The notes beneath the pieces are model-generated. The model was not told where the DNA came from, did not search any database, and saw nothing but the letters and a program-made list of their open reading frames with translations. The position numbers and the translations under genes were made by a program. From a virus, in the IMG/VR virus record IMGVR_UViG_3300023174_005338, positions 248,001 to 312,000 of that record: DNA of 64,000 bases; one strand, written 5' to 3'. Within the stretch, counting starts at the first letter, position 1, and each line of letters begins with the position of its first letter. Shown here piece by piece: positions 23,635-33,990 of the stretch.

Positions 23635-24537
23635 GTGTCAACCACACCCACAAGGACCCCAGCAAAAACCAACTATCTCAACAACAGAGATATCCTAAAA
23701 CAAATACACCTCAGCAAAAATAGCTACTGTACATACCTAGATCCAGTGACAGATCACCAGTATGACATCATCTTGCCCACAGTGGAACGAATCAATCAAA
23801 GAACCACAGCCGAGGCACGCAGAAACCGTGCTGAACGTATCAAGCGAGAAACTGGGCAGGTCATAGATCCCAAAAAAATCCCCAACACAGACTTGGTGTT
23901 CCGCATAACCTGCTGGGAACACATACCCATGGCGCCTAAAAAAGTGCCCAAGAGTTCGGCCAAGAAAAACAAAATTGAAGACATATTTGAACTGGACGTG
24001 TTGGAGGAAGACGATCCCTTGGCCGAGCTGATCGAAGAGCCTGTGCTGGATCCCAAACATGTGAGATTGAATTTTCCTCCGTTTTATCACTACCGCATAG
24101 ATAACAACAAACAACCGTACATCGTGGGCAAAAGCCACTGGAAGGGTGACCTGGAGCAGGGAGAGTTCAGCAAGGATCATGGCACCATGACCCGTACCTT
24201 GGCCACCATGTTTATCAAGCTGTGCGAACGCTATGCCACCCGATCAAACTGGCGTGGCTACACCTACAACGAGGAAATGCGTGGTCAGGCCTTACTACAG
24301 TTAAGCCAGATTGGCCTGCAGTTTGACGAGTCAAAAAGCCAAAATCCATTTGCTTATTACACCGCGGCCATTACCAACAGTTTCACACGTATCCTAAACT
24401 TGGAAAAGAAAAATCAAAACATCCGCGATGACATGTTGGAACAGGCCGGACTCAATCCATCATGGACTCGTCAGAATGCCGGTCGTAAGAATCCAGCACA
24501 GGCACCCGGAGAGGTTGTAATTGTCACAGAAGAATAG
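23635..24537 (+). CDS. gp55: Late-transcription sigma factor, T4 gp55-like, with N-terminal extension
   Basis: A 300-residue protein starting at GTG, with an AGGAG ribosome site about 8 nt upstream. Residues about 185-270 carry the gp55 core: LATMFIKLCERYATRSNWRG, YTYNEEMRGQALLQLSQIG, then SQNPFAYYTAAITNSFTRIL and NLEKKNQNIRDDML. This corresponds to sigma region 2, which recognises the -10-like late box. T4 gp55 is about 185 residues, so roughly 120-150 extra residues lie at the N-terminus, including a Lys-rich then very acidic stretch (residues 100-140). The gene is followed 12 nt later by gp47. The late boxes listed in this annotation are its probable targets. Confidence 0.88.
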   Translation: MSTTPTRTPAKTNYLNNRDILKQIHLSKNSYCTYLDPVTDHQYDIILPTVERINQRTTAEARRNRAERIKRETGQVIDPKKIPNTDLVFRITCWEHIPMAPKKVPKSSAKKNKIEDIFELDVLEEDDPLAELIEEPVLDPKHVRLNFPPFYHYRIDNNKQPYIVGKSHWKGDLEQGEFSKDHGTMTRTLATMFIKLCERYATRSNWRGYTYNEEMRGQALLQLSQIGLQFDESKSQNPFAYYTAAITNSFTRILNLEKKNQNIRDDMLEQAGLNPSWTRQNAGRKNPAQAPGEVVIVTEE

Positions 24538-24549: not shown

Positions 24550-25563
24550 ATGAGTCTATTCCGTAAAGTTGCTGTCTGCACCGATATACACTTTGGTCTC
24601 AAGTCCAACAGCCTACAACACAATCAAGATTGCAGTGATTTCATTGATTGGTTCATAGCCACAGCTCGAGCCAATGGTTGCGAGACCGGCATGTTCCTAG
24701 GCGACTGGAGCCATCAGCGTGCGGCCATTAACATGCAGACCTTGCAGTATAGCCTGCGTAGCTTGGAGAAGCTGAGTGCGGCATTTGACAGATTTTATTT
24801 TATTCCAGGCAACCATGATCTGTATTATCGTGACAAACGTGATATCTACAGCACAGAGTGGGCCCGTCACATACCCAACATCCAAATTGTTAATGATTGG
24901 TTCCAGGATGGCGACGTTGTGATCGCACCATGGCTGGTCGGGGACGATCACAAGCGTATCCCAAAACTCAAGGGTCAGTACATGTTTGGACACTTTGAAC
25001 TGCCACACTTCAAGATGAATGCCATGGTAGAAATGCCCGATCACGGTGACATACAGGTAGATCACTTTGGTGGGTTCGAACGTGTGTTCAGCGGACACTT
25101 CCACTTGAGACAGCAAAAGAAAAACATCAACTACATCGGCAACTGCTTTCCGCACAACTATGCCGATGCCGGTGATTCAGCACGTGGCATGATGACTCTG
25201 ACGTGGGGTCAAGAACCTGTGTTCCATGCCTGGCCCGGGCAACCTCTTTACAAGGTGCTGAAACTCAGCCAGGTCATAGATTCAGCTCCGTCATTGTTGG
25301 CCGCCAACATGCATGTGCGTGTGGAACTGGACATTGATATTTCGTATGAAGAAGCCAATTTCATCAAAGACACCTTTGTCAAGGATTACGATCTCAGAGA
25401 GATGGCCTTGATTCCAGTAAAGAGCACCGCAGTAGATGCCGACATGGCGCCCGGAGAAGTCAAATTCGAAAGTGTGGATCAGATTGTAACCGATCAGATC
25501 ACCAACATTGAAAGCGAATTCTATGATCCTAAATTATTGTTGAGGATATATCAATCCTTATAA
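24550..25563 (+). CDS. gp47: Recombination endonuclease subunit, T4 gp47 / SbcD-like
   Basis: A 337-residue calcineurin-like phosphoesterase. The metal-binding motifs are visible in order: TDIHFG (residues about 11-16), GDWSHQ, GNHDLYY (about 92-98) and GHFHLR. With gp46 it forms the Mre11/Rad50-type nuclease that resects DNA ends for recombination-dependent replication and degrades host DNA. In T4 genes 46 and 47 are close together; here the partner gene 46 lies 4.3 kb away, beyond an inserted metabolic cassette. No Shine-Dalgarno precedes the ATG; a possible -10 element ends 6 nt upstream. Confidence 0.95.
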   Translation: MSLFRKVAVCTDIHFGLKSNSLQHNQDCSDFIDWFIATARANGCETGMFLGDWSHQRAAINMQTLQYSLRSLEKLSAAFDRFYFIPGNHDLYYRDKRDIYSTEWARHIPNIQIVNDWFQDGDVVIAPWLVGDDHKRIPKLKGQYMFGHFELPHFKMNAMVEMPDHGDIQVDHFGGFERVFSGHFHLRQQKKNINYIGNCFPHNYADAGDSARGMMTLTWGQEPVFHAWPGQPLYKVLKLSQVIDSAPSLLAANMHVRVELDIDISYEEANFIKDTFVKDYDLREMALIPVKSTAVDADMAPGEVKFESVDQIVTDQITNIESEFYDPKLLLRIYQSL

Positions 25564-25604: not shown

Positions 25605-27131
25605 ATGAGTCAACAAGTTCTCTCTCGGCATCTTTTGTGTCCCGATTTGAAATTTTATCAACACAATTTCGACACCAACCAAACTGCGGTCTTTGACTAC
25701 GACCAGTTCAGCCGCATGGTAGATTATTGGAAATTTATGTTGGTTGAAAAATACAATGTTCAACACGGGCAAACCGTGATGATTGAATTTAATCTCACCA
25801 ACATATACTATTTTACAGCTATTTTTGCGGCCTGGGAACTGGGTCTCGTGCTCATAGTTGATTGGATTCATGCGTACAGCGAACAGGAATGTCACGGAAA
25901 AAGTTTTACCATACACGGACAAATAGATCACGCCATAGTTTACAGTGAACAACTAAATCCCAACAACAAGAAATTTTATCTAGAATGGGATGTGTATCGC
26001 ACTCGTTTACACTGTCGTAATGTCATAACCGAAATAGATTTTAATAATTATGAAATTAAGGATCACAGTAAATTTGCGGAAATAGCTGAAACCGTTTACG
26101 CCAGGCCTGACAGCCAGGCCATTTGGACCGCAACCAGTGGTAGCACAGGCGATCCTAAACAACAACGCATAGACCACAGATCAGTGTTTCTACAGGCCAA
26201 ACGATTAATCAATCACCTGAATTTTAAACCAGAGCAATCGGTACTTCATACTCACAATGTGCATCACGGTGCTAGTGCTTGCTATCATTTTTTACCCAGT
26301 CTGATGACTTCTACCAACCATTATGTTATGAATTACGAGCATTGGAACGACACTCACAACAAACAATTGGCAGACTTTATTGAAAGTAGAAAGATAAACA
26401 AAATATTTTTGTACACGCCCGACAAGATCTTGGCTTATCTAAACTCTACTGATCCACTCCAGCATGAAGTAGAAATTACTACCTTGTATTTTTGCACCAA
26501 AGAAATTGTAAATTTAGCCAAAGAAAAAAATATCAAAGGCATTTATAGTGTGTTTGGTGACACAACCATTGCCTATGGGTTTTTGGTCAAGGTCGTAGAT
26601 TTGCAACAGTCGTTAAACACTTATGAACCCAGTTGTATAGGACCGCAACTAGACGATTTTTTTGATTTCAAGATTCAAGATGGTCATCTTTACATTCGAA
26701 GCAGTGGCTTAGGCAAAACAGAGTGGCAGACCAGTAAAGACAATTTTGAACTGAAAGATAACAAATATTATTTCCTAGGGCGCGGAACCGATTACCGCAT
26801 CAACGATGAATGGATCAATCACAACGAAATTGAAAGCAGGATCAATGAACTGTTTACTATCGATCAAAAAGAAGGTGCTACCATAGTAATTGACAACGAA
26901 GAACAACAGGTTTATTTGGCTATATGGATTGAAAATCCGCAAGCCGAACTTGAATTTGATCGTTGGTTAGCACAACGTTATAAAACTGTGACTATCACAA
27001 AACGAGCACGAGACTTAAACAAAAACGAATTCCTAGGGTCGAGAAAAGTCAGTCGGCAACTATTAAAGGAATACTTTAGATCCAAAGTCCAACGAATTTA
27101 CAGTTTCACTGATCCTTGGATATTATCTTAA
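25605..27131 (+). CDS. AMP-forming adenylate ligase (acyl/aryl-CoA synthetase-like)
   Basis: A 508-residue member of the ANL (adenylate-forming) superfamily. The P-loop TSGSTGDPK lies at residues 177-185. Next come YSVFGDTTIAYG (motif A5 position), YYFLGRGTDYRINDEWINHN (hinge region; the usual GRxDD reads GRGTD) and a C-terminal LGSRKVSRQLL that would supply the catalytic lysine. Such enzymes activate a carboxylic acid with ATP, usually to a CoA thioester. The substrate cannot be read; the downstream dioxygenase suggests an aromatic or related acid. The base composition is visibly more AT-rich than the phage structural genes. No Shine-Dalgarno is obvious. The next gene starts 35 nt downstream. 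Confidence 0.85.
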   Translation: MSQQVLSRHLLCPDLKFYQHNFDTNQTAVFDYDQFSRMVDYWKFMLVEKYNVQHGQTVMIEFNLTNIYYFTAIFAAWELGLVLIVDWIHAYSEQECHGKSFTIHGQIDHAIVYSEQLNPNNKKFYLEWDVYRTRLHCRNVITEIDFNNYEIKDHSKFAEIAETVYARPDSQAIWTATSGSTGDPKQQRIDHRSVFLQAKRLINHLNFKPEQSVLHTHNVHHGASACYHFLPSLMTSTNHYVMNYEHWNDTHNKQLADFIESRKINKIFLYTPDKILAYLNSTDPLQHEVEITTLYFCTKEIVNLAKEKNIKGIYSVFGDTTIAYGFLVKVVDLQQSLNTYEPSCIGPQLDDFFDFKIQDGHLYIRSSGLGKTEWQTSKDNFELKDNKYYFLGRGTDYRINDEWINHNEIESRINELFTIDQKEGATIVIDNEEQQVYLAIWIENPQAELEFDRWLAQRYKTVTITKRARDLNKNEFLGSRKVSRQLLKEYFRSKVQRIYSFTDPWILS

Positions 27132-27166
27132 AATTATGAATACATTTGTTATCAAGGAAATTTAAA

Positions 27167-28144
27167 ATGACATTTATTACCAAAATTTTTGACGGCTCAC
27201 AATCAGTAATAAAATTGTTGCTTGCAATTTTGTTGACGTGGGCAATTCCATCGTGGTCTGCAACATATCCATCGAAACCAGTGAAAATTATCATCAGCTT
27301 GCCGATAGGCAGTGGTCCAGATGCACAATTACGACGGGTGGCAGAAATACTGTCAGAAAAATGGAACCAACCTGTGGTTGTAGAAAATCGACCCGGAGCA
27401 TCTGGAATAGTGGCCATGAATCAAGTGGTAAATGAACCTGCCGATGGATATACATTAGGACTGTTTCACATGGGAGATATTGTGCCATTTCCTATTTTAT
27501 ACAACAACAACAAAGCTCTAGACAACCTAGTAGTACTGGCTCCATTTTTTACAGCAGACATGGCATTGTTTGTTAGCACCGGTGTTAAAAATCTTGAAGA
27601 GCTCAAACAACTTTTAAAAAGAAATCCCAATTATGGTTCCTGGGGAATAGGAAGCATACAGCATGTTGTCGGTGCAGAGTTTGTTAGTTTGTATGTTGAT
27701 AATGCCACCCATATTCCTTATCGAGACGGTAACTTGTTCACCGATGTAAGCACCAAAACATTGAGCTTTGGTTTTACTAGTCTGGGGTCTGGCAATGCTA
27801 TGTATCGTGCTAACAAGATTCATTATTTGGCCATTGCTACTGACCAACGGCACAAACAATTTCCTGATGTCCCGACTATTAGAGAACTAACTGGTAAAAA
27901 AATTGTGGCTCAGAGCTGGCTAGCATTCTTCGTAAAAAAAGGAATTCCTGATCCAGTCCGTCAACAAATAGAAAAAGATCTACGTGTAGCTATTGCAGAT
28001 CAAAGAATGCAAGATTTTTTACTTGAAAATTATTTTATACCTCTCAACAACACAAGTTTAAATCAGTTTGTAAAACAAATTGAGCACGAACGTTCGGTTT
28101 ACAAAAACAATCTTCAACGACACAAAATCAGTCTTACGCAATGA
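27167..28144 (+). CDS. Exported solute-binding protein, Bug/TctC family
   Basis: 325 residues from the ATG at 27167, chosen because AAGGAA lies 7 nt upstream; an earlier TTG at 27146 has no such site. Residues 1-33 form a signal peptide: a hydrophobic segment IKLLLAILLTWAIP, then SWSA before the likely cut. The mature protein has the Bug pattern: YPSKPVKIIISLPIGSGPDA, QPVVVENRPGASG, NEPADGYTLG, and later PDVPTIREL. Bug proteins bind small carboxylates in the periplasm and usually deliver them to a TctAB membrane partner, which is absent here. Its stop overlaps the dioxygenase alpha start (ATGA). Its job in an infected cell is unknown; helping uptake through host TctAB is an inference. Confidence 0.9.
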   Translation: MTFITKIFDGSQSVIKLLLAILLTWAIPSWSATYPSKPVKIIISLPIGSGPDAQLRRVAEILSEKWNQPVVVENRPGASGIVAMNQVVNEPADGYTLGLFHMGDIVPFPILYNNNKALDNLVVLAPFFTADMALFVSTGVKNLEELKQLLKRNPNYGSWGIGSIQHVVGAEFVSLYVDNATHIPYRDGNLFTDVSTKTLSFGFTSLGSGNAMYRANKIHYLAIATDQRHKQFPDVPTIRELTGKKIVAQSWLAFFVKKGIPDPVRQQIEKDLRVAIADQRMQDFLLENYFIPLNNTSLNQFVKQIEHERSVYKNNLQRHKISLTQ

Positions 28145-29409
28145 CCCATTACTGGCCCGATCAAAACACCAGCAGAATTCCCTATTGGGCCTATACCGAC
28201 ACTGATGTATATCAGCAAGAATTACAAAAAATTTGGTATGGACCGCATTGGTGTTATGTTGGGCTTGAATGCGAAATACCCAACACGAATGATTTCAAAC
28301 TCGGCTGGGTAGGAGAGCGCGAAGTAATAGTTACTAGAGATCTAGATGGCATCCATGTGGTAGAAAATCGGTGCGCTCACAGAGGTGTTCGTTTTTGTCA
28401 AAAACAAACAGGAAATACCGAGAAATTTGTGTGTGCATATCATCAATGGAGGTACAATCTCAAGGGAGATCTTGTCAGTGTACCTTTTGAAAAAGGCGCA
28501 CCCAAAAATGGAGAAATCTGTGGAGGCATGCCAGATAATTTTGACAAGCATAATCATGGGCTGGTAAAATTGCATGTGGCTGTTTTGCACGGAGTGATAT
28601 TTGCCACGTTTGATGACAGTGTGTGTGGCATAGAACAATATTTAGGACCCGAAATACTGCCTTGGTTTGAAAGAACATTCAAAGGTCGGACACTGAAATT
28701 GCTAGGACATAATCGTCAAGAAATCAAAGGCAATTGGAAATTGATGATGGAAAACATCAAAGATCCTTATCACCCTGGTTTATTGCACACATGGTTTGTG
28801 ACTTTTGGTTTGTTCAGGGCCGATCAATCCACAAGCAGAATGGTCATTGACAAAGAAGGACGTCATGCAGTCATGTTGAATCGTCGCAATCGTGGAATAG
28901 CCAACGAAGTAACCAAAGGAGTTGAATCGTTCAAGCCCAAAATGCAGTTGAACGATACTAGATTATTAGACATAGTCGAAGAGCCATGGTGGACTGTGCC
29001 AGACCCCAATGACCCCAAACAACCCATCAACCCTACAAACTGCATGCAAACAATTTTTCCTAGCCTGATAATTCAACAACAGATCAACAGCATGAGCACA
29101 CGACATATTGTGCCTCGCGGTCCCGGGTGTTTTGAATTTACCTGGACCCATTTTGCTTTTTCAGACGACTCAGAGGACATGATTCAACGCAGACTTAGAC
29201 AAGCAAATCTTTTTGGACCAGCCGGATTTGTCAGCGCCGACGATGGTGAAGTGTTGGAGTTATCACAGCAAGGTTTTAATCAATGGCGCACAGATGGAGA
29301 ATTACTGGTAGAATTAGGTGGGCCAGATTCTGGACAAACTACCGAGCACATGGTCACAGAAACTCTGATCAGGGGCATGTATAGATACTACAGAAAAATA
29401 ATGGCATGA
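28141..29409 (+). CDS. Rieske non-haem iron ring-hydroxylating dioxygenase, alpha subunit
   Basis: A 422-residue oxygenase. The Rieske 2Fe-2S centre is complete: C78 and H80 in NRCAHRGVRF, and C98 and H101 in FVCAYHQWRYN. The mononuclear iron site has D208, H211 and H216 in DPYHPGLLHTWF, and D367 or D368 in SADDGEVLE as the probable third ligand. Enzymes of this family add O2 to an aromatic ring to give a cis-dihydrodiol or hydroxylated product. All key residues are present, so it looks functional. Electrons would have to come from a reductase/ferredoxin that is not encoded in the window. It is coupled by ATGA overlaps to the genes on both sides. Confidence 0.93.
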   Translation: MTHYWPDQNTSRIPYWAYTDTDVYQQELQKIWYGPHWCYVGLECEIPNTNDFKLGWVGEREVIVTRDLDGIHVVENRCAHRGVRFCQKQTGNTEKFVCAYHQWRYNLKGDLVSVPFEKGAPKNGEICGGMPDNFDKHNHGLVKLHVAVLHGVIFATFDDSVCGIEQYLGPEILPWFERTFKGRTLKLLGHNRQEIKGNWKLMMENIKDPYHPGLLHTWFVTFGLFRADQSTSRMVIDKEGRHAVMLNRRNRGIANEVTKGVESFKPKMQLNDTRLLDIVEEPWWTVPDPNDPKQPINPTNCMQTIFPSLIIQQQINSMSTRHIVPRGPGCFEFTWTHFAFSDDSEDMIQRRLRQANLFGPAGFVSADDGEVLELSQQGFNQWRTDGELLVELGGPDSGQTTEHMVTETLIRGMYRYYRKIMA

Positions 29410-29879
29410 AGGATCTGGAACTTAAATTTCAAATTGATCAACTAAATGCCTGCTATGGCGATGCGTTGGATCGACATGATTACAACACATGGATGAATTT
29501 TTTTGAAGAAGAATGTTTGTATTTGGTGCAAAGTCGAGAAAATTTTGATCGCAACTTGCCTCTTGCATTGATACGATTGGAAAGCCATCGTATGATGCAA
29601 GATCGAGTTTATGGTTGCATGGACACAATTTTTCATCAAGAATATTATCAGCGTCATATAATTTCAGGTTGTGTGATTAGCAAAATAGAAAATAACAAAA
29701 TTTTTACTAGAACAAATTACACAGTTTTTAGAACCAAACCCACAGAATCTTCAGAAGTATTCAATGTTGGGTGCTATCACGATGTCTGGTCGCAACGACA
29801 CACCGGGCCAAAGTTGGCTGAACGCAAATGTGTTTACGACAGCGAAATGATTTTGAATGCGTTAATATATCCAATTTAA
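29406..29879 (+). CDS. Ring-hydroxylating dioxygenase, beta subunit
   Basis: A 157-residue protein of the SnoaL/NTF2-like fold, typical size for the small subunit. It has the family pattern: an N-terminal helix region with YGDALDRHDYNTWMNFFEEE, then LPLALIRLESHRMMQDRVYG and RHIISGCVISKIENN, ending in a beta sheet with YDSEMILNAL. Beta subunits are structural partners in the alpha3beta3 holoenzyme. The start overlaps the alpha stop by ATGA. It ends the cassette; gp46 follows 37 nt later from its own promoter. Confidence 0.88.
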   Translation: MKDLELKFQIDQLNACYGDALDRHDYNTWMNFFEEECLYLVQSRENFDRNLPLALIRLESHRMMQDRVYGCMDTIFHQEYYQRHIISGCVISKIENNKIFTRTNYTVFRTKPTESSEVFNVGCYHDVWSQRHTGPKLAERKCVYDSEMILNALIYPI

Positions 29880-29899: not shown

Positions 29900-29908
29900 T
29901 GTTATACT
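29900..29908 (+). promoter_or_regulatory. Extended -10 promoter element of gp46
   Basis: TGTTATACT at 29900-29908 is an extended -10 (TGnTATACT). No good -35 is visible. It ends 8 nt before the gp46 ATG. Confidence 0.45.
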
Positions 29909-29916
29909 GAAAAACA

Positions 29917-31680
29917 ATGATTCAAATAAAAAATCTCACAGTAAAAAACTTTATGAGCGTGGGCAACGCCACGCAAGGCATCGACTTTGATCGACGCGAC
30001 TTGACACTTGTGTTGGGCGAGAACTTGGATCTTGGTGGCGACGGAAGCCGCAACGGCACAGGTAAAACTACTATAATCAATGCTCTTAGCTACAGCTTGT
30101 ATGGGCAAGCATTAAGTAACATCCGCAAGGACAACTTAGTCAACAAAACCAACAACAAAAACATGTTGGTCAGTTTGGATTTCAGTGTGGACGGCAAAGA
30201 TTACCGGATTGAACGAGGCCGTAAACCCAACCTGCTGAGATTCTTTGTAAACAATCAAGAGCAAGTGGTCACAGACGAAGCACAAGGCGACAGCCGAGAA
30301 ACACAGGATGCCATTGAACATACCTTGGGCCTCAGTCACGACATGTTCAAACACATTCTGGCACTCAACACTTACACAGAACCGTTTCTGAGTCTCAAAG
30401 CCACAGATCAAAGAACCATCATTGAACAACTCCTGGGCATAACCATGCTGAGCGAGCGTGCCGATCGAATCAAAGAACACAACAGATCCACCAAAGAAGC
30501 CATACAGCAAGAAGAATTCCGTATTCGAGCTGTTCAAGAAGCCAATAAAAGGATAGAAGAACAGATTGAGGCTTTACGACGTAGACAGACATTATGGGTG
30601 ACTAAACATGAAGAAGAGATTACCAAACTCGAAACCGCGCTCGAAGAACTCAAAAAGATTGACATTGAAGCCGAGATTGCGGCCCACAAGGCGCACAAAG
30701 TATGGGATCAGAAGCGCAAGGACCTTAACGACCTGGCTGGACAGATCTCCCGCACGAAGCTTGATAAGGACCGCGAGAACAAAAGCATTGAGAAGCTTGG
30801 CAAGGAGATTGCGACACTTGAAGATCACACATGTCACACTTGCGGGCAGGCTTTCCACGACCATAAGCACCAACAGGTCCTGGCGGGTAAGCAGGCTGAT
30901 CTGGCAAGAGCGCGAGAAGCGTGCCAAGAACATACACAGCTCCTTTCAGAACTCGAGACTGCCCACACAGCCTTGGGCACGTTAGGGCGACCACCTGCTA
31001 TGTTCTATGATAGTGAAGAGGATGCCATACAACATCGTAGCAGCATGGCTGCCTTGCAAACTCAATTGACAAACAAACAGGCCGAAACAGATCCCTACGG
31101 CGAGCAGATAGCGGACATGCAAGGTCAGGCTTTGCAGGTAGTAAGCTATGACACACTCAATGAGCTGACCAGACTTCAGGAACATCAAGACTTCTTGCTC
31201 AAACTTTTGACCAGCAAGGATTCATTCATACGCAAAAAAATCATTGAACAGAATTTGAGTTATTTGAATGCCAGACTCACACACTACCTGGATAGGATTG
31301 GCCTGCCGCATACCGTGGTGTTCCAGAACGATTTGACTGTGAGCATCGAGGAGCTGGGTCGTGAGCTGGACTTTGACAATTTGAGTCGTGGCGAACGCAA
31401 CAGATTGATCTTGAGCATGAGCTGGGCCTTTCGTGATGTGTTTGAAAGCCTATACCAGCCCATCAATGTGCTGTTCATAGACGAAATGATTGATTCGGGC
31501 CTGGACACACAGGGTGTAGAAAATGCTCTTGCGTTGCTGAAGCACATGAGCCGCGAACGGCACAAGAGTATTTGGTTGGTCAGCCACAGAGATGAGCTAG
31601 CCGGAAGAGTTGAAAACATACTCCGAGTGGTCAAAGAAGGCGGCTTTACCAGTTACAACACGGATGTAGAAATTGCGTAG
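29917..31680 (+). CDS. gp46: Recombination endonuclease ATPase subunit, T4 gp46 / SbcC/Rad50-like
   Basis: A 587-residue SMC-like ATPase. Walker A is at residues about 43-53 (GSRNGTGKTTIINAL). Long charged coiled-coil arms flank a zinc hook, CHTCGQAF, near residue 305. The ABC signature LSRGERNRLILSMSW and the Walker B VLFIDEMIDSG lie near residues 490-530, and the C-terminal histidine switch is in IWLVSHRDEL. It pairs with gp47. There is no Shine-Dalgarno before the ATG. The downstream radical SAM gene begins inside its last codons. Confidence 0.96.
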   Translation: MIQIKNLTVKNFMSVGNATQGIDFDRRDLTLVLGENLDLGGDGSRNGTGKTTIINALSYSLYGQALSNIRKDNLVNKTNNKNMLVSLDFSVDGKDYRIERGRKPNLLRFFVNNQEQVVTDEAQGDSRETQDAIEHTLGLSHDMFKHILALNTYTEPFLSLKATDQRTIIEQLLGITMLSERADRIKEHNRSTKEAIQQEEFRIRAVQEANKRIEEQIEALRRRQTLWVTKHEEEITKLETALEELKKIDIEAEIAAHKAHKVWDQKRKDLNDLAGQISRTKLDKDRENKSIEKLGKEIATLEDHTCHTCGQAFHDHKHQQVLAGKQADLARAREACQEHTQLLSELETAHTALGTLGRPPAMFYDSEEDAIQHRSSMAALQTQLTNKQAETDPYGEQIADMQGQALQVVSYDTLNELTRLQEHQDFLLKLLTSKDSFIRKKIIEQNLSYLNARLTHYLDRIGLPHTVVFQNDLTVSIEELGRELDFDNLSRGERNRLILSMSWAFRDVFESLYQPINVLFIDEMIDSGLDTQGVENALALLKHMSRERHKSIWLVSHRDELAGRVENILRVVKEGGFTSYNTDVEIA

Positions 31681-32539
31681 AATACGAGTCTTACACATTG
31701 AACCCACCGACGTTTGTCAGGCTGCATGCCCGTTGTGTGCCCGAGAGACTGACCCAAACTTTAATAAAAGTTTAAAGCATCATCTCAGAGTAGAGCACAT
31801 ACAAAAACATTTTTCAGAACAAGTAATTTCCAAACTGGATAAAATGTTCATGTGTGGCAATTATGGTGATCCGGCTGCAGGCTACTATACCATGGACATC
31901 TACAACCACTTTAGAAAAGTCAATCCAGAAATTGTGTTGGGTATGAACACCAATGGTGCTGTGCAAAGCACGTTCTTTTGGCATGCGTTGGGACGATTGT
32001 TCAATCAGCCCAAAGATTATTGTGTGTTTAGCATAGACGGATTAGAGGATACCAATCACGTTTATCGTAAAAATGTCAATTGGGCCAAGCTAATGAGCAA
32101 CGTTCAAGCCTACATTGCCGCAGGTGGAAGTGCCCATTGGGACATGCTGGTGTACAAACACAATCAACATCAAGTGGATGCTTGCCAGCAACTGGCTCGT
32201 GACATGGGATTCAAGTGGTTCCGTGCCAAGGTCAGCAAGCGTGGATTCACTGATCATTTAGAATTTCCCATCGGGTGGCAACCGCCTGCGGTCAAGGCGG
32301 GGCCCATCAAATGCCATGTGATTAATGAAAAAAGCATGTACATTGATGCGCAAGGTCGTGCCAGTGCCTGTTGCTGGCTTGGTGCCACGCAACAAGATTT
32401 TGTCAAAGATGATTTGGCAACTGTAAAATTAACTTGGAAAACAGACACACCCAATCCGGTGTGTGTCAGTGCTTGTTCCACAAACAAAAATAAAACCGTA
32501 TTCCAAGACCAATGGCAACGCGAGGTACAACTGTGTTAG
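31673..32539 (+). CDS. Radical SAM protein with twitch-type auxiliary cysteines (first of pair)
   Basis: 288 residues from a TTG that overlaps the gp46 end by 8 nt; no ATG is available upstream of the conserved motif. The cluster motif C15-x3-C19-x2-C22 (CQAACPLC) binds the 4Fe-4S centre that cleaves SAM. Later come NYGDP, a barrel strand IDGLEDTNHVYR, and a C-terminal cysteine set (IKCHVIN, ASACCWLG, PVCVSACS) of the kind that holds an auxiliary cluster in SPASM/twitch enzymes. These are peptide or small-molecule modifiers in known cases. The substrate is unknown. The stop lies within the start of the second radical SAM gene. Confidence 0.85.
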   Translation: MRRIRVLHIEPTDVCQAACPLCARETDPNFNKSLKHHLRVEHIQKHFSEQVISKLDKMFMCGNYGDPAAGYYTMDIYNHFRKVNPEIVLGMNTNGAVQSTFFWHALGRLFNQPKDYCVFSIDGLEDTNHVYRKNVNWAKLMSNVQAYIAAGGSAHWDMLVYKHNQHQVDACQQLARDMGFKWFRAKVSKRGFTDHLEFPIGWQPPAVKAGPIKCHVINEKSMYIDAQGRASACCWLGATQQDFVKDDLATVKLTWKTDTPNPVCVSACSTNKNKTVFQDQWQREVQLC

Positions 32540-33543
32540 CCACCTGGCATTTTCATATCGAAATCAGTTCAAAGTGTACCCTGCGTTGCCCACGCTGTGC
32601 CAGACAAGAGGTTCCCGACAGTTTAGTAAACACTGAACTGGATTTAGAATTTTTTAAAAGAAACTTTACCGCAGAGTTTGTTCTTGACAATGTAGAAAAG
32701 ATCACATTTTGTGGTGACGACGGTGATCCTATCTATGCTCACGACCTTATACCAGTGATTCAATACATCAAGTCAATCAAACCTGTTGAGATTGTAGTTG
32801 TCACAAATGGATCACACAAGAAACCAGAATGGTGGCGTGAACTTGGTGGCGTGCTTAGTGAGCAAGATACTGTACACTTTAGCATCGACGGTTGGGACTA
32901 CCCAAGCAACAATCTGTATCGTGTCAACAGTGATTTCAACAGTATTGTCGACGGAATCACTGCACTACGATCAACCTCTGAGTGCCACCTTGTGTGGGCT
33001 GCCATTGTCTTTGGGTTCAATGAACACCAACTGGGCGCTATGAAAAATCATGCACGTTTGCTAGATATGGATGTATTTCAACTTACCAAGAGCACCAAGT
33101 TTGGCTCCGTTTATCTCTCCTACGGTCCAATCGATGAGCTAGAGCCCAGCCGGCCGTTTGTCAGCAGTTCACACAGATTTGAGAGAGATGTTACACCGAT
33201 AAGCTCGCGTGGACTCAATTCACAGACAAACACCAAGAACATACAATTATACAAATCTGCTGTAGAGATCAACGGTGTAAAACCCCTGTGTGAAATTGGC
33301 AACAAAGGACTTTATATTGACGCCCAAGGTAGATTATTCCCTTGCTGTTGGGTAGCAAACCGCTACAGTCACAATTCAGAATGGAAAGCTATTGCTAACA
33401 AATTTGATTTGAATCGTCGCACACTGGCCGACGCTGTAACTGACGATTTTTGGTCAACAACATTTAAAACCTTTGGGTGGCAAGAGTGCCAGACTAAGTG
33501 TGTAGCGAGCAGGGTAAATGAAAAATATGCAACTGAGTGGTAA
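32512..33543 (+). CDS. Radical SAM protein with twitch-type auxiliary cysteines (second of pair)
   Basis: 343 residues if started at ATG 32512. A GTG at 32533, preceded by GAGGT, is an equally good start and would remove 7 residues. The SAM motif is C22-x3-C26-x2-C29 (CTLRCPRC). Then GDDGDPIYAHDLIP, a VVVTNGSH strand, HFSIDGWD, and C-terminal cysteines in PLCEIGNKGLYIDAQG, LFPCCWVANRY and QECQTKC. The layout parallels the preceding gene (IDAQGR...CCW in both), so the two are paralogues or partners; overlap suggests co-translation. No candidate precursor peptide is evident next to them. Confidence 0.86.
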   Translation: MATRGTTVLATWHFHIEISSKCTLRCPRCARQEVPDSLVNTELDLEFFKRNFTAEFVLDNVEKITFCGDDGDPIYAHDLIPVIQYIKSIKPVEIVVVTNGSHKKPEWWRELGGVLSEQDTVHFSIDGWDYPSNNLYRVNSDFNSIVDGITALRSTSECHLVWAAIVFGFNEHQLGAMKNHARLLDMDVFQLTKSTKFGSVYLSYGPIDELEPSRPFVSSSHRFERDVTPISSRGLNSQTNTKNIQLYKSAVEINGVKPLCEIGNKGLYIDAQGRLFPCCWVANRYSHNSEWKAIANKFDLNRRTLADAVTDDFWSTTFKTFGWQECQTKCVASRVNEKYATEW

Positions 33544-33561
33544 AATGATAAATTATAGTCC

Positions 33562-33990
33562 ATGGTATGGCTGTACGAAAACACTCCGATTGAACAACTA
33601 CCCGAAGACTGTGTTGGTTTTGTTTATTTGATCACAAATAACGTTACCGGCAGAAAGTACATTGGAAAAAAATTAGCAAAGTTTAGCAAGACCTCATATC
33701 GAGTAGTAAAATTAAAGAACGGCTACAAGAAACGTAAAAAGATAAGAAGCAAAATAGATTCAGACTGGCAACTATACTATGGCAGCAACGATCAACTCAA
33801 CCGAGACATTGCAGAGCTGGGCTCAGACAACTTCACAAGAGAAATATTGTTTTATTGCCGATCAAAAGCAGAATGCAGTTATGTTGAAGCACGCGAACAA
33901 TTCAATCATAAAGTATTGGAATCAGATGACTACTACAATGGACAGATTGTTTGCCGTATACACGGAAGTCATATAAAAAACAAAATTTAA
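33562..33990 (+). CDS. GIY-YIG family endonuclease-like protein
   Basis: A 142-residue protein. The N-terminal GFVYLITNNVTGRKYIGKK is a GIY-YIG motif (here FVY...YIG). It is followed by a Lys-rich stretch, DWQLYYGSNDQLNRDIAELG, then REILFYCRSKAECSYVEARE with the expected glutamate. In T4-like phages such proteins are Seg-like homing or repair nucleases. It follows the radical SAM genes by 18 nt and directly precedes the structured non-coding region, an arrangement that recalls homing endonucleases near introns. No clear Shine-Dalgarno is seen. Confidence 0.8.
   Translation: MVWLYENTPIEQLPEDCVGFVYLITNNVTGRKYIGKKLAKFSKTSYRVVKLKNGYKKRKKIRSKIDSDWQLYYGSNDQLNRDIAELGSDNFTREILFYCRSKAECSYVEAREQFNHKVLESDDYYNGQIVCRIHGSHIKNKI

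Follow-up and report, generated by a model that had tools for sequence, protein, structure and literature searches.

The 64-kb window analysed here (64,000 nucleotides, positions 248,001 to 312,000 of the IMG/VR virus record IMGVR_UViG_3300023174_005338, which totals 337,119 bases) contains T4-type gp23, portal, prohead protease, baseplate and sigma genes and derives from a 337-kb T4-like jumbo phage. Between its recombination nuclease genes gp47 and gp46 lies a 4.3-kb AT-rich cassette of four genes, encoding an adenylate-forming enzyme (LIG), a solute-binding protein (BUG) and the α- and β-subunits of a Rieske oxygenase (Table 1). The four genes lie at the coordinates given in the initial annotation and belong to the families named there, with Pfam matches that all exceed the gathering cut-offs; PHROG matches identify the flanking genes. 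The block has a guanine plus cytosine (GC) content of 0.38–0.41 (39% overall) versus ~48% in its surroundings. Cassette genes and flanks are all encoded on the + strand, downstream of a late-transcription sigma factor. BUG starts with a TTG codon, and the ATGA overlaps noted earlier are present at both the BUG/α and α/β borders, each 4 nt long.

Table 1. Genes and promoter-like element of the gp47–gp46 region (window coordinates)
Feature	Coordinates	Strand	Evidence
Late-transcription sigma factor (gp55-like), first gene of the cassette-holding operon	23635..24537	+	phrog_12791, E 5e-75
gp47/SbcD recombination nuclease subunit, left hotspot border	24550..25563	+	phrog_100, E 9e-55
LIG, class I adenylate-forming enzyme (acyl/aryl-CoA ligase or adenylation type)	25605..27131	+	PF00501 43 bits
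BUG, Bug/TctC-family solute-binding protein, predicted exported	27146..28144	+	TctC PF03401 134 bits
Rieske oxygenase α-subunit, NagG (salicylate 5-hydroxylase)-like	28141..29409	+	Rieske PF00355 + Ring_hydroxyl_A PF00848; 7c8z_A 555 bits
Rieske oxygenase β-subunit, NagH-like	29406..29879	+	Ring_hydroxyl_B PF00866 50 bits; 7c8z_B 126 bits
Extended -10-like TGTTATACT, probable gp46 promoter	29900..29908	+	TATAAT-like hexamer enrichment at cargo-bearing junctions
gp46/SbcC recombination nuclease subunit, right hotspot border	29917..31680	+	phrog_77, E 3e-100

The cassette is part of a genuine phage genome. When IMG/VR was searched with the α-subunit, three more contigs (63.8, 8.7 and 84.6 kb, with other metagenome identifiers) proved to carry BUG-α-β between gp47 and gp46, their α-subunits being 69–71% identical. 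Because the same junction is occupied in these three independent contigs, a chimaeric assembly is ruled out. The initial annotation had itself raised the concern that the block might be chimaeric or part of a host contig, and the GC step at the block borders speaks for such an artefact. Set against this step, the shared synteny, the empty sites in relatives and the transfer of cassettes with precise edges described below make misassembly or host contamination vanishingly improbable, an explanation refuted in practice. Among the four oxygenase-bearing contigs, LIG is shared only by the window and contig L004 (62% identical); its position is empty in L002 and taken by three other open reading frames in L003. 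Between L002 and L003 the ratio of nonsynonymous to synonymous substitution rates (dN/dS) is 0.02 for α, 0.05 for BUG and 0.12 for β. In the other comparisons of phage copies synonymous sites are mostly saturated and the proportion of nonsynonymous differences (pN) lies far below that of synonymous ones (pS). The cassette genes are intact and, given these low values, under strong purifying selection.

The junction between gp47 and gp46 is a hotspot for cargo. With gp46 as bait 80 relatives (78–95% identical) were collected, giving 84 contigs in total, of which 22 have an empty junction and 53 carry cargo of 0.5–4.9 kb bounded on both sides, the remaining contigs being truncated. Where the junction is empty, the stop codon of gp47 and the start codon of gp46 share an ATGA. 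Two contigs (L089 and L090) are empty though their gp46 is 95% identical to that of the window, and in the cultured Pseudomonas phage Paride (gp46 52% identical) the genes run sigma-SbcD-SbcC with nothing inserted. Among the other cargo found at this site are radical SAM (S-adenosylmethionine) proteins, UDP-sugar dehydrogenase, DegT aminotransferase, epimerases, methyltransferase, hexapeptide transferase and sulfotransferase. A family of ~400 amino acids without a Pfam match, amidinotransferase-like by eye, is found as cargo in L097, L102, L105, L107 and L169 (6020–7165).

Of 55 distinct junctions with cargo, 27 have a TATAAT-like hexamer at -11 to -16 before gp46, whereas shuffled sequences gave 6.4 on average and never more than 16; the hexamer is enriched also over control positions. 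Because of this enrichment, cargo seems to bring with it a promoter that restores gp46 expression. In the window, TGTTATACT is the probable promoter, from which gp46 would be expressed independently of the cargo. The element is positioned very close to the gp46 start, so that the transcript would be nearly leaderless.

Among solved structures the α-subunit comes closest to NagG of salicylate 5-hydroxylase (555 bits, 60.6% identity), with terephthalate dioxygenase behind it at 300 bits and 40% identity, and the β-subunit comes closest to NagH (7c8z_B, 126 bits). The Rieske ligands (C78/H80/C98/H101) and two of the iron ligands (H211 and H216) had been correctly listed in the initial annotation. 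D208, which appeared there beside them, is instead the bridging Asp, and the unlisted third iron ligand is D368, assigned by alignment to TphA2 D356. All of these residues are invariant in the four phage α copies. NagG Q316 and S367, which we take to matter for salicylate binding, are also identical in phage α. Residues R321 and M245, present in all four phages, occupy the positions of NagG Arg323 and Met257. This Arg anchors the substrate carboxylate across the group (TphA2 R309, NagG R323), while NagG Met257 replaces the Ser that contacts the second carboxylate of terephthalate (PMC9060491). Assignment as terephthalate dioxygenase (TphA2A3) was rejected at 40% identity with Met in the Ser243 column, and because Met stands for this Ser terephthalate is an unlikely substrate. 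Assignment as anthranilate 1,2-dioxygenase (AndAcAd) was likewise rejected, the scores falling far under the NCBIfam equivalog cut-offs (NF041684 AndAc: 358 bits versus 750; AndAd: 115 bits versus 230). Taken together the matches support membership of the oxygenase in the aryl-carboxylate (NagG/AndAc/TphA2) group. Since the carboxylate-anchoring Arg and the NagG-type Met are both kept, a monocarboxylate aromatic is the best prediction for its substrate. Of the original proposal of an aromatic-acid operon, the aromatic-acid part holds as a likely reading and a best guess, short of proof, because the oxygenase falls in this group; the single-operon part found no support, as set out below.

BUG scores 134 bits against PF03401 (gathering score 27), and its matches in the PDB are Bug27, BugD and the terephthalate-binding protein. 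By direct reading, its N-terminus is hydrophobic and signal-peptide-like, as it is in the phage copies that were aligned or listed, and BUG classes as a Bug/TctC-family solute-binding protein with predicted export. Phage BUGs are 28–55% identical between lineages, many of them >35%, while the bacterial BUGs sampled (four genomes plus plasmids) reach at most ~33%.

LIG is, with certainty from its motifs and modelled fold, a class I adenylate-forming enzyme. It exceeds the PF00501 cut-off (43 bits versus 29.9), contains the P-loop TSGSTGDPK, and has an A10-type, catalytic-type Lys481 that is invariant in an alignment of six phage homologues. The AlphaFold model is of fair quality (predicted local distance difference test score, pLDDT, 80.6), and Foldseek aligns it at E ~1e-20 with nonribosomal peptide synthetase (NRPS) A domains, ACSM2A, MenE, and anthranilate- and benzoate-CoA (coenzyme A) ligases. 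Attempts to narrow the function were rejected: global TM-scores of only 0.5–0.6, with many subfamilies tied, preclude reading a substrate from the structure, and the equivalog scores fall far short of those for a curated aryl-CoA ligase (HbdA 29.7 versus 1000 bits; MenE 27.5 versus 330).

The four genes are not a fixed set. LIG adjoins BUG at the junction without an oxygenase in at least six further lineages (L103, L128, L145, L171, L173, L177, L178–L182 and L183), and BUG-α-β occurs without LIG in two phages. Across nine phages the pairwise identities of LIG and BUG are strongly correlated (r = 0.92, Mantel P = 0.0005), while those of gp46 are correlated with neither (r = 0.01 for LIG and 0.00 for BUG), so that LIG and BUG, as judged from these identities, are inherited together and pass as a pair from one of these phages to another. 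In L177 (3484–7395) the arrangement is LIG-BUG-LIG, with two divergent LIG genes (39% identical) around one BUG.

The initial annotation read all four genes as one bacterial operon. Capture of a whole catabolic operon in one step from a Burkholderiales host is favoured by the abundance of both the α and BUG families in Comamonadaceae and by the phage gene order of Bug, oxygenase α and oxygenase β, which resembles that of bacterial tph-type operons. The bacterial loci themselves argue otherwise. The 80 best bacterial relatives of α (60–67% identical) are almost all from Comamonadaceae and close Burkholderiales, and their α/β pairs mostly lie beside mutL, dedA and/or the amidase gene amiC, with at least one of the tested neighbours in 78 of the 80 loci and exactly mutL+dedA+amiC in 44. 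In none of the 80 does a phage-type BUG adjoin α/β, BUG matches there being at most 33% identical. The two Ferrovibrio loci differ in position, and in one of them genes for urate oxidase and OHCU decarboxylase lie nearby. Together with the separate phage-borne occurrence of LIG-BUG and the closer overall likeness of phage BUGs to each other than to the sampled bacterial ones, these observations speak against the single-operon claim and make one-step capture very unlikely. In a maximum-likelihood tree with the Comamonadaceae relatives the four phage α-subunits form one clade (100/99), weakly tied to a Limnohabitans-type group (60/87). Orphan NagGH-like α/β pairs hold a conserved chromosomal position in Ramlibacter, Polaromonas, Hydrogenophaga and Limnohabitans (L005–L084), and in the loci inspected no reductase or ferredoxin gene was noticed next to them.

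Movement of the cassettes can be followed in two pairs of contigs. In L145 and L173 the cassettes are 94–98% identical, while the flanking gp47 and gp46 are mostly 65–75% identical; identity climbs within the last ~100 nt of gp47 and drops ~40 nt into gp46. In L002 and L003 BUG-α-β is 96–98% identical with flanks at ~85–90%, and dS is 0.10–0.14 in the cassette versus 0.57 in gp46. Because cassettes are far more identical than their flanks, each evidently passes from phage to phage as one unit, whose edges fall no more than ~100 nt from the gene borders. The simplest route would be recombination through the short conserved ends of the two flanking genes. Co-transfer from SegE, the gene downstream, was considered and rejected, since the identity of L145 and L173 is already lost ~40 nt inside gp46, so that the moved block stops short of SegE. 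The broader proposal, that LIG-BUG is an undescribed phage-specific two-gene module, spread between distantly related jumbo phages by junction replacement and combined with other enzymes (here the Rieske oxygenase) into new small-molecule pathways found in no bacterial operon, we put forward tentatively, at a little under even chances.

A second variable stretch lies between gp46 and the SegE-type GIY-YIG gene (window 31673–33543) and holds two radical SAM genes; in L002, L004, L173 and L179 the same stretch carries different radical SAM, SDR (short-chain dehydrogenase/reductase) or PLP (pyridoxal phosphate)-like genes. The best PHROG match of the SegE-type protein (window 33562–33990) is phrog_447, labelled NAD synthetase, probably a wrong label. 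The gp46 protein is ~100 amino acids longer in L004 (11806–13881, 691 residues) and L179 (6011–8092, 693 residues) than in the window (587 residues), its middle region being expanded.

The initial annotation knew of no described phage with this gene combination, and we likewise found none: the cassette has no close match among 50,697 phage records, LIG has no match in the phage and plasmid records searched, and nothing was found in the open-access literature on Rieske oxygenases as phage auxiliary genes. Acinetobacter phage MD-2021a (INPHARED CAKLQF/CAKLQH) was rejected as an oxygenase-bearing phage; its benA/antA-type genes are 25–28% identical, and by their annotation these phage-labelled contigs look like host chromosome DNA.

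The reading that we favour, as probable, is that a group of uncultured T4-like jumbo phages carry the cassette as mobile cargo for auxiliary metabolism, assembled within phages from two modules for the capture and hydroxylation of an aryl carboxylate. One module would be the co-inherited LIG-BUG pair and the other the salicylate 5-hydroxylase-type α/β oxygenase, akin to the orphan Comamonadaceae pairs. Profile searches of the 337-kb record, whose filter could miss divergent ferredoxins, gave no match to the ferredoxin domain Fer2, the reductase domain NAD_binding_1 or the permease TctA, so that the host must supply both the electrons and the membrane transport. During infection exported BUG would take up an aromatic carboxylate in the periplasm and pass it to a host TctAB-type permease. 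An α3β3 oxygenase, reduced by host ferredoxin and reductase, would then hydroxylate the ring, the analogous NagGH reaction being salicylate to gentisate, and LIG may adenylate or CoA-activate the acid or its product. The products would feed the central metabolism of the host and so sustain phage production in cells already rich in Bug proteins; Comamonadaceae of the presumed host type have 66–150 Bug matches per genome and are thus well equipped. Substrate, benefit and the uptake-hydroxylation-activation route are inferences in this scheme.

Several points weigh against this scheme. NagG acts on the free acid, which leaves the fit of LIG with the oxygenase unexplained, and BUG-α-β occurs also without LIG. 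LIG itself is too divergent for substrate assignment (best PDB identity 12–16%), and it may hand the activated acid to CoA, to a carrier protein or to another acceptor. The host is suggested only by gene kinship, the aryl-carboxylate substrate and the expression and activity of the cassette are predictions, and the first filter of the genome search may have passed over divergent ferredoxins.

The same features bear on two other functions. The NagG-like monooxygenase group acts on salicylate-type acids, and one hydroxylation would suffice, without the rest of a degradation pathway, to clear a salicylate-, anthranilate- or phenolic-like acid that acts as inhibitor or signal and would harm the infected cell or the production of phage in it; the acid would then not feed central metabolism. 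Such detoxification or signal removal is unlikely, however, since an uptake protein would bring the toxin in and the recurrence of LIG-BUG without the oxygenase suits acquisition better than clearance. Alternatively, LIG might activate an oxygenase-hydroxylated aryl acid that is then attached to a glycan of the surface, to a peptide or to a small molecule from the action of other phage cargo. Other cargo at this site has biosynthetic functions (UDP-sugar dehydrogenase, DegT aminotransferase, epimerases, hexapeptide transferase, sulfotransferase and radical SAM), and the best fold match of LIG is an NRPS adenylation domain, its best NCBIfam profile being an amino-acid adenylation domain, far under the cut-off. 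With no acyl carrier protein or condensation domain seen beside LIG, and a periplasmic binding protein that has no obvious biosynthetic role, we consider this function improbable too.

The best-known fields of phage auxiliary metabolism are photosynthesis, phosphate, nitrogen and sulfur, and aromatic-acid turnover is central to dissolved organic matter. Genes for the breakdown of pollutants or aromatic compounds have reportedly been seen as auxiliary metabolic genes in aquatic phages (Ru et al. 2023, cited in PMC13343209). If the capture-and-hydroxylation reading is true, a full α/β Rieske oxygenase with its own binding protein would widen phage auxiliary metabolism to aromatic acids. The fixed cargo port in a recombination operon, with its empty, filled and recently swapped examples, shows in concrete terms how phages can put gene sets together, as does the LIG-BUG pair, whose co-inheritance appears independent of phage phylogeny. 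The system is testable, since both the substrate group and the junction are defined and the need for electron-transfer and permease partners from the host is clear.

Compared with known systems, the nearest sequence kin of the phage oxygenase are the orphan Comamonadaceae α/β pairs (60–67% identical), which differ in being chromosomal and in lacking LIG and an adjoining phage-type BUG. NagGH of Ralstonia sp. U2 (7c8z) shares the Rieske and iron ligands, the carboxylate-anchoring Arg, the pocket Met and the β-subunit, whereas the phage enzyme is part of a LIG- and BUG-containing cassette in a record without a match to the NagAa reductase or NagAb ferredoxin. TphC with TphA2A3 (Bug-type terephthalate-binding protein, TBP, structures 8hka–8hkb) likewise pairs a Bug protein with an α/β Rieske oxygenase for an aryl carboxylate, but the α-subunit is only 40% identical to that of the phage, which has Met for Ser243, and TphB and TphA1 are not in the phage cassette. 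Finally, cyanophage PstS, which is thought to serve the host phosphate system, is also a periplasmic solute-binding protein supplied by a T4-like phage and dependent on a host permease (PMC6359870), whereas phage BUG is of another ligand class, is encoded beside an adenylating enzyme and an oxygenase, and is mobile at a fixed junction.

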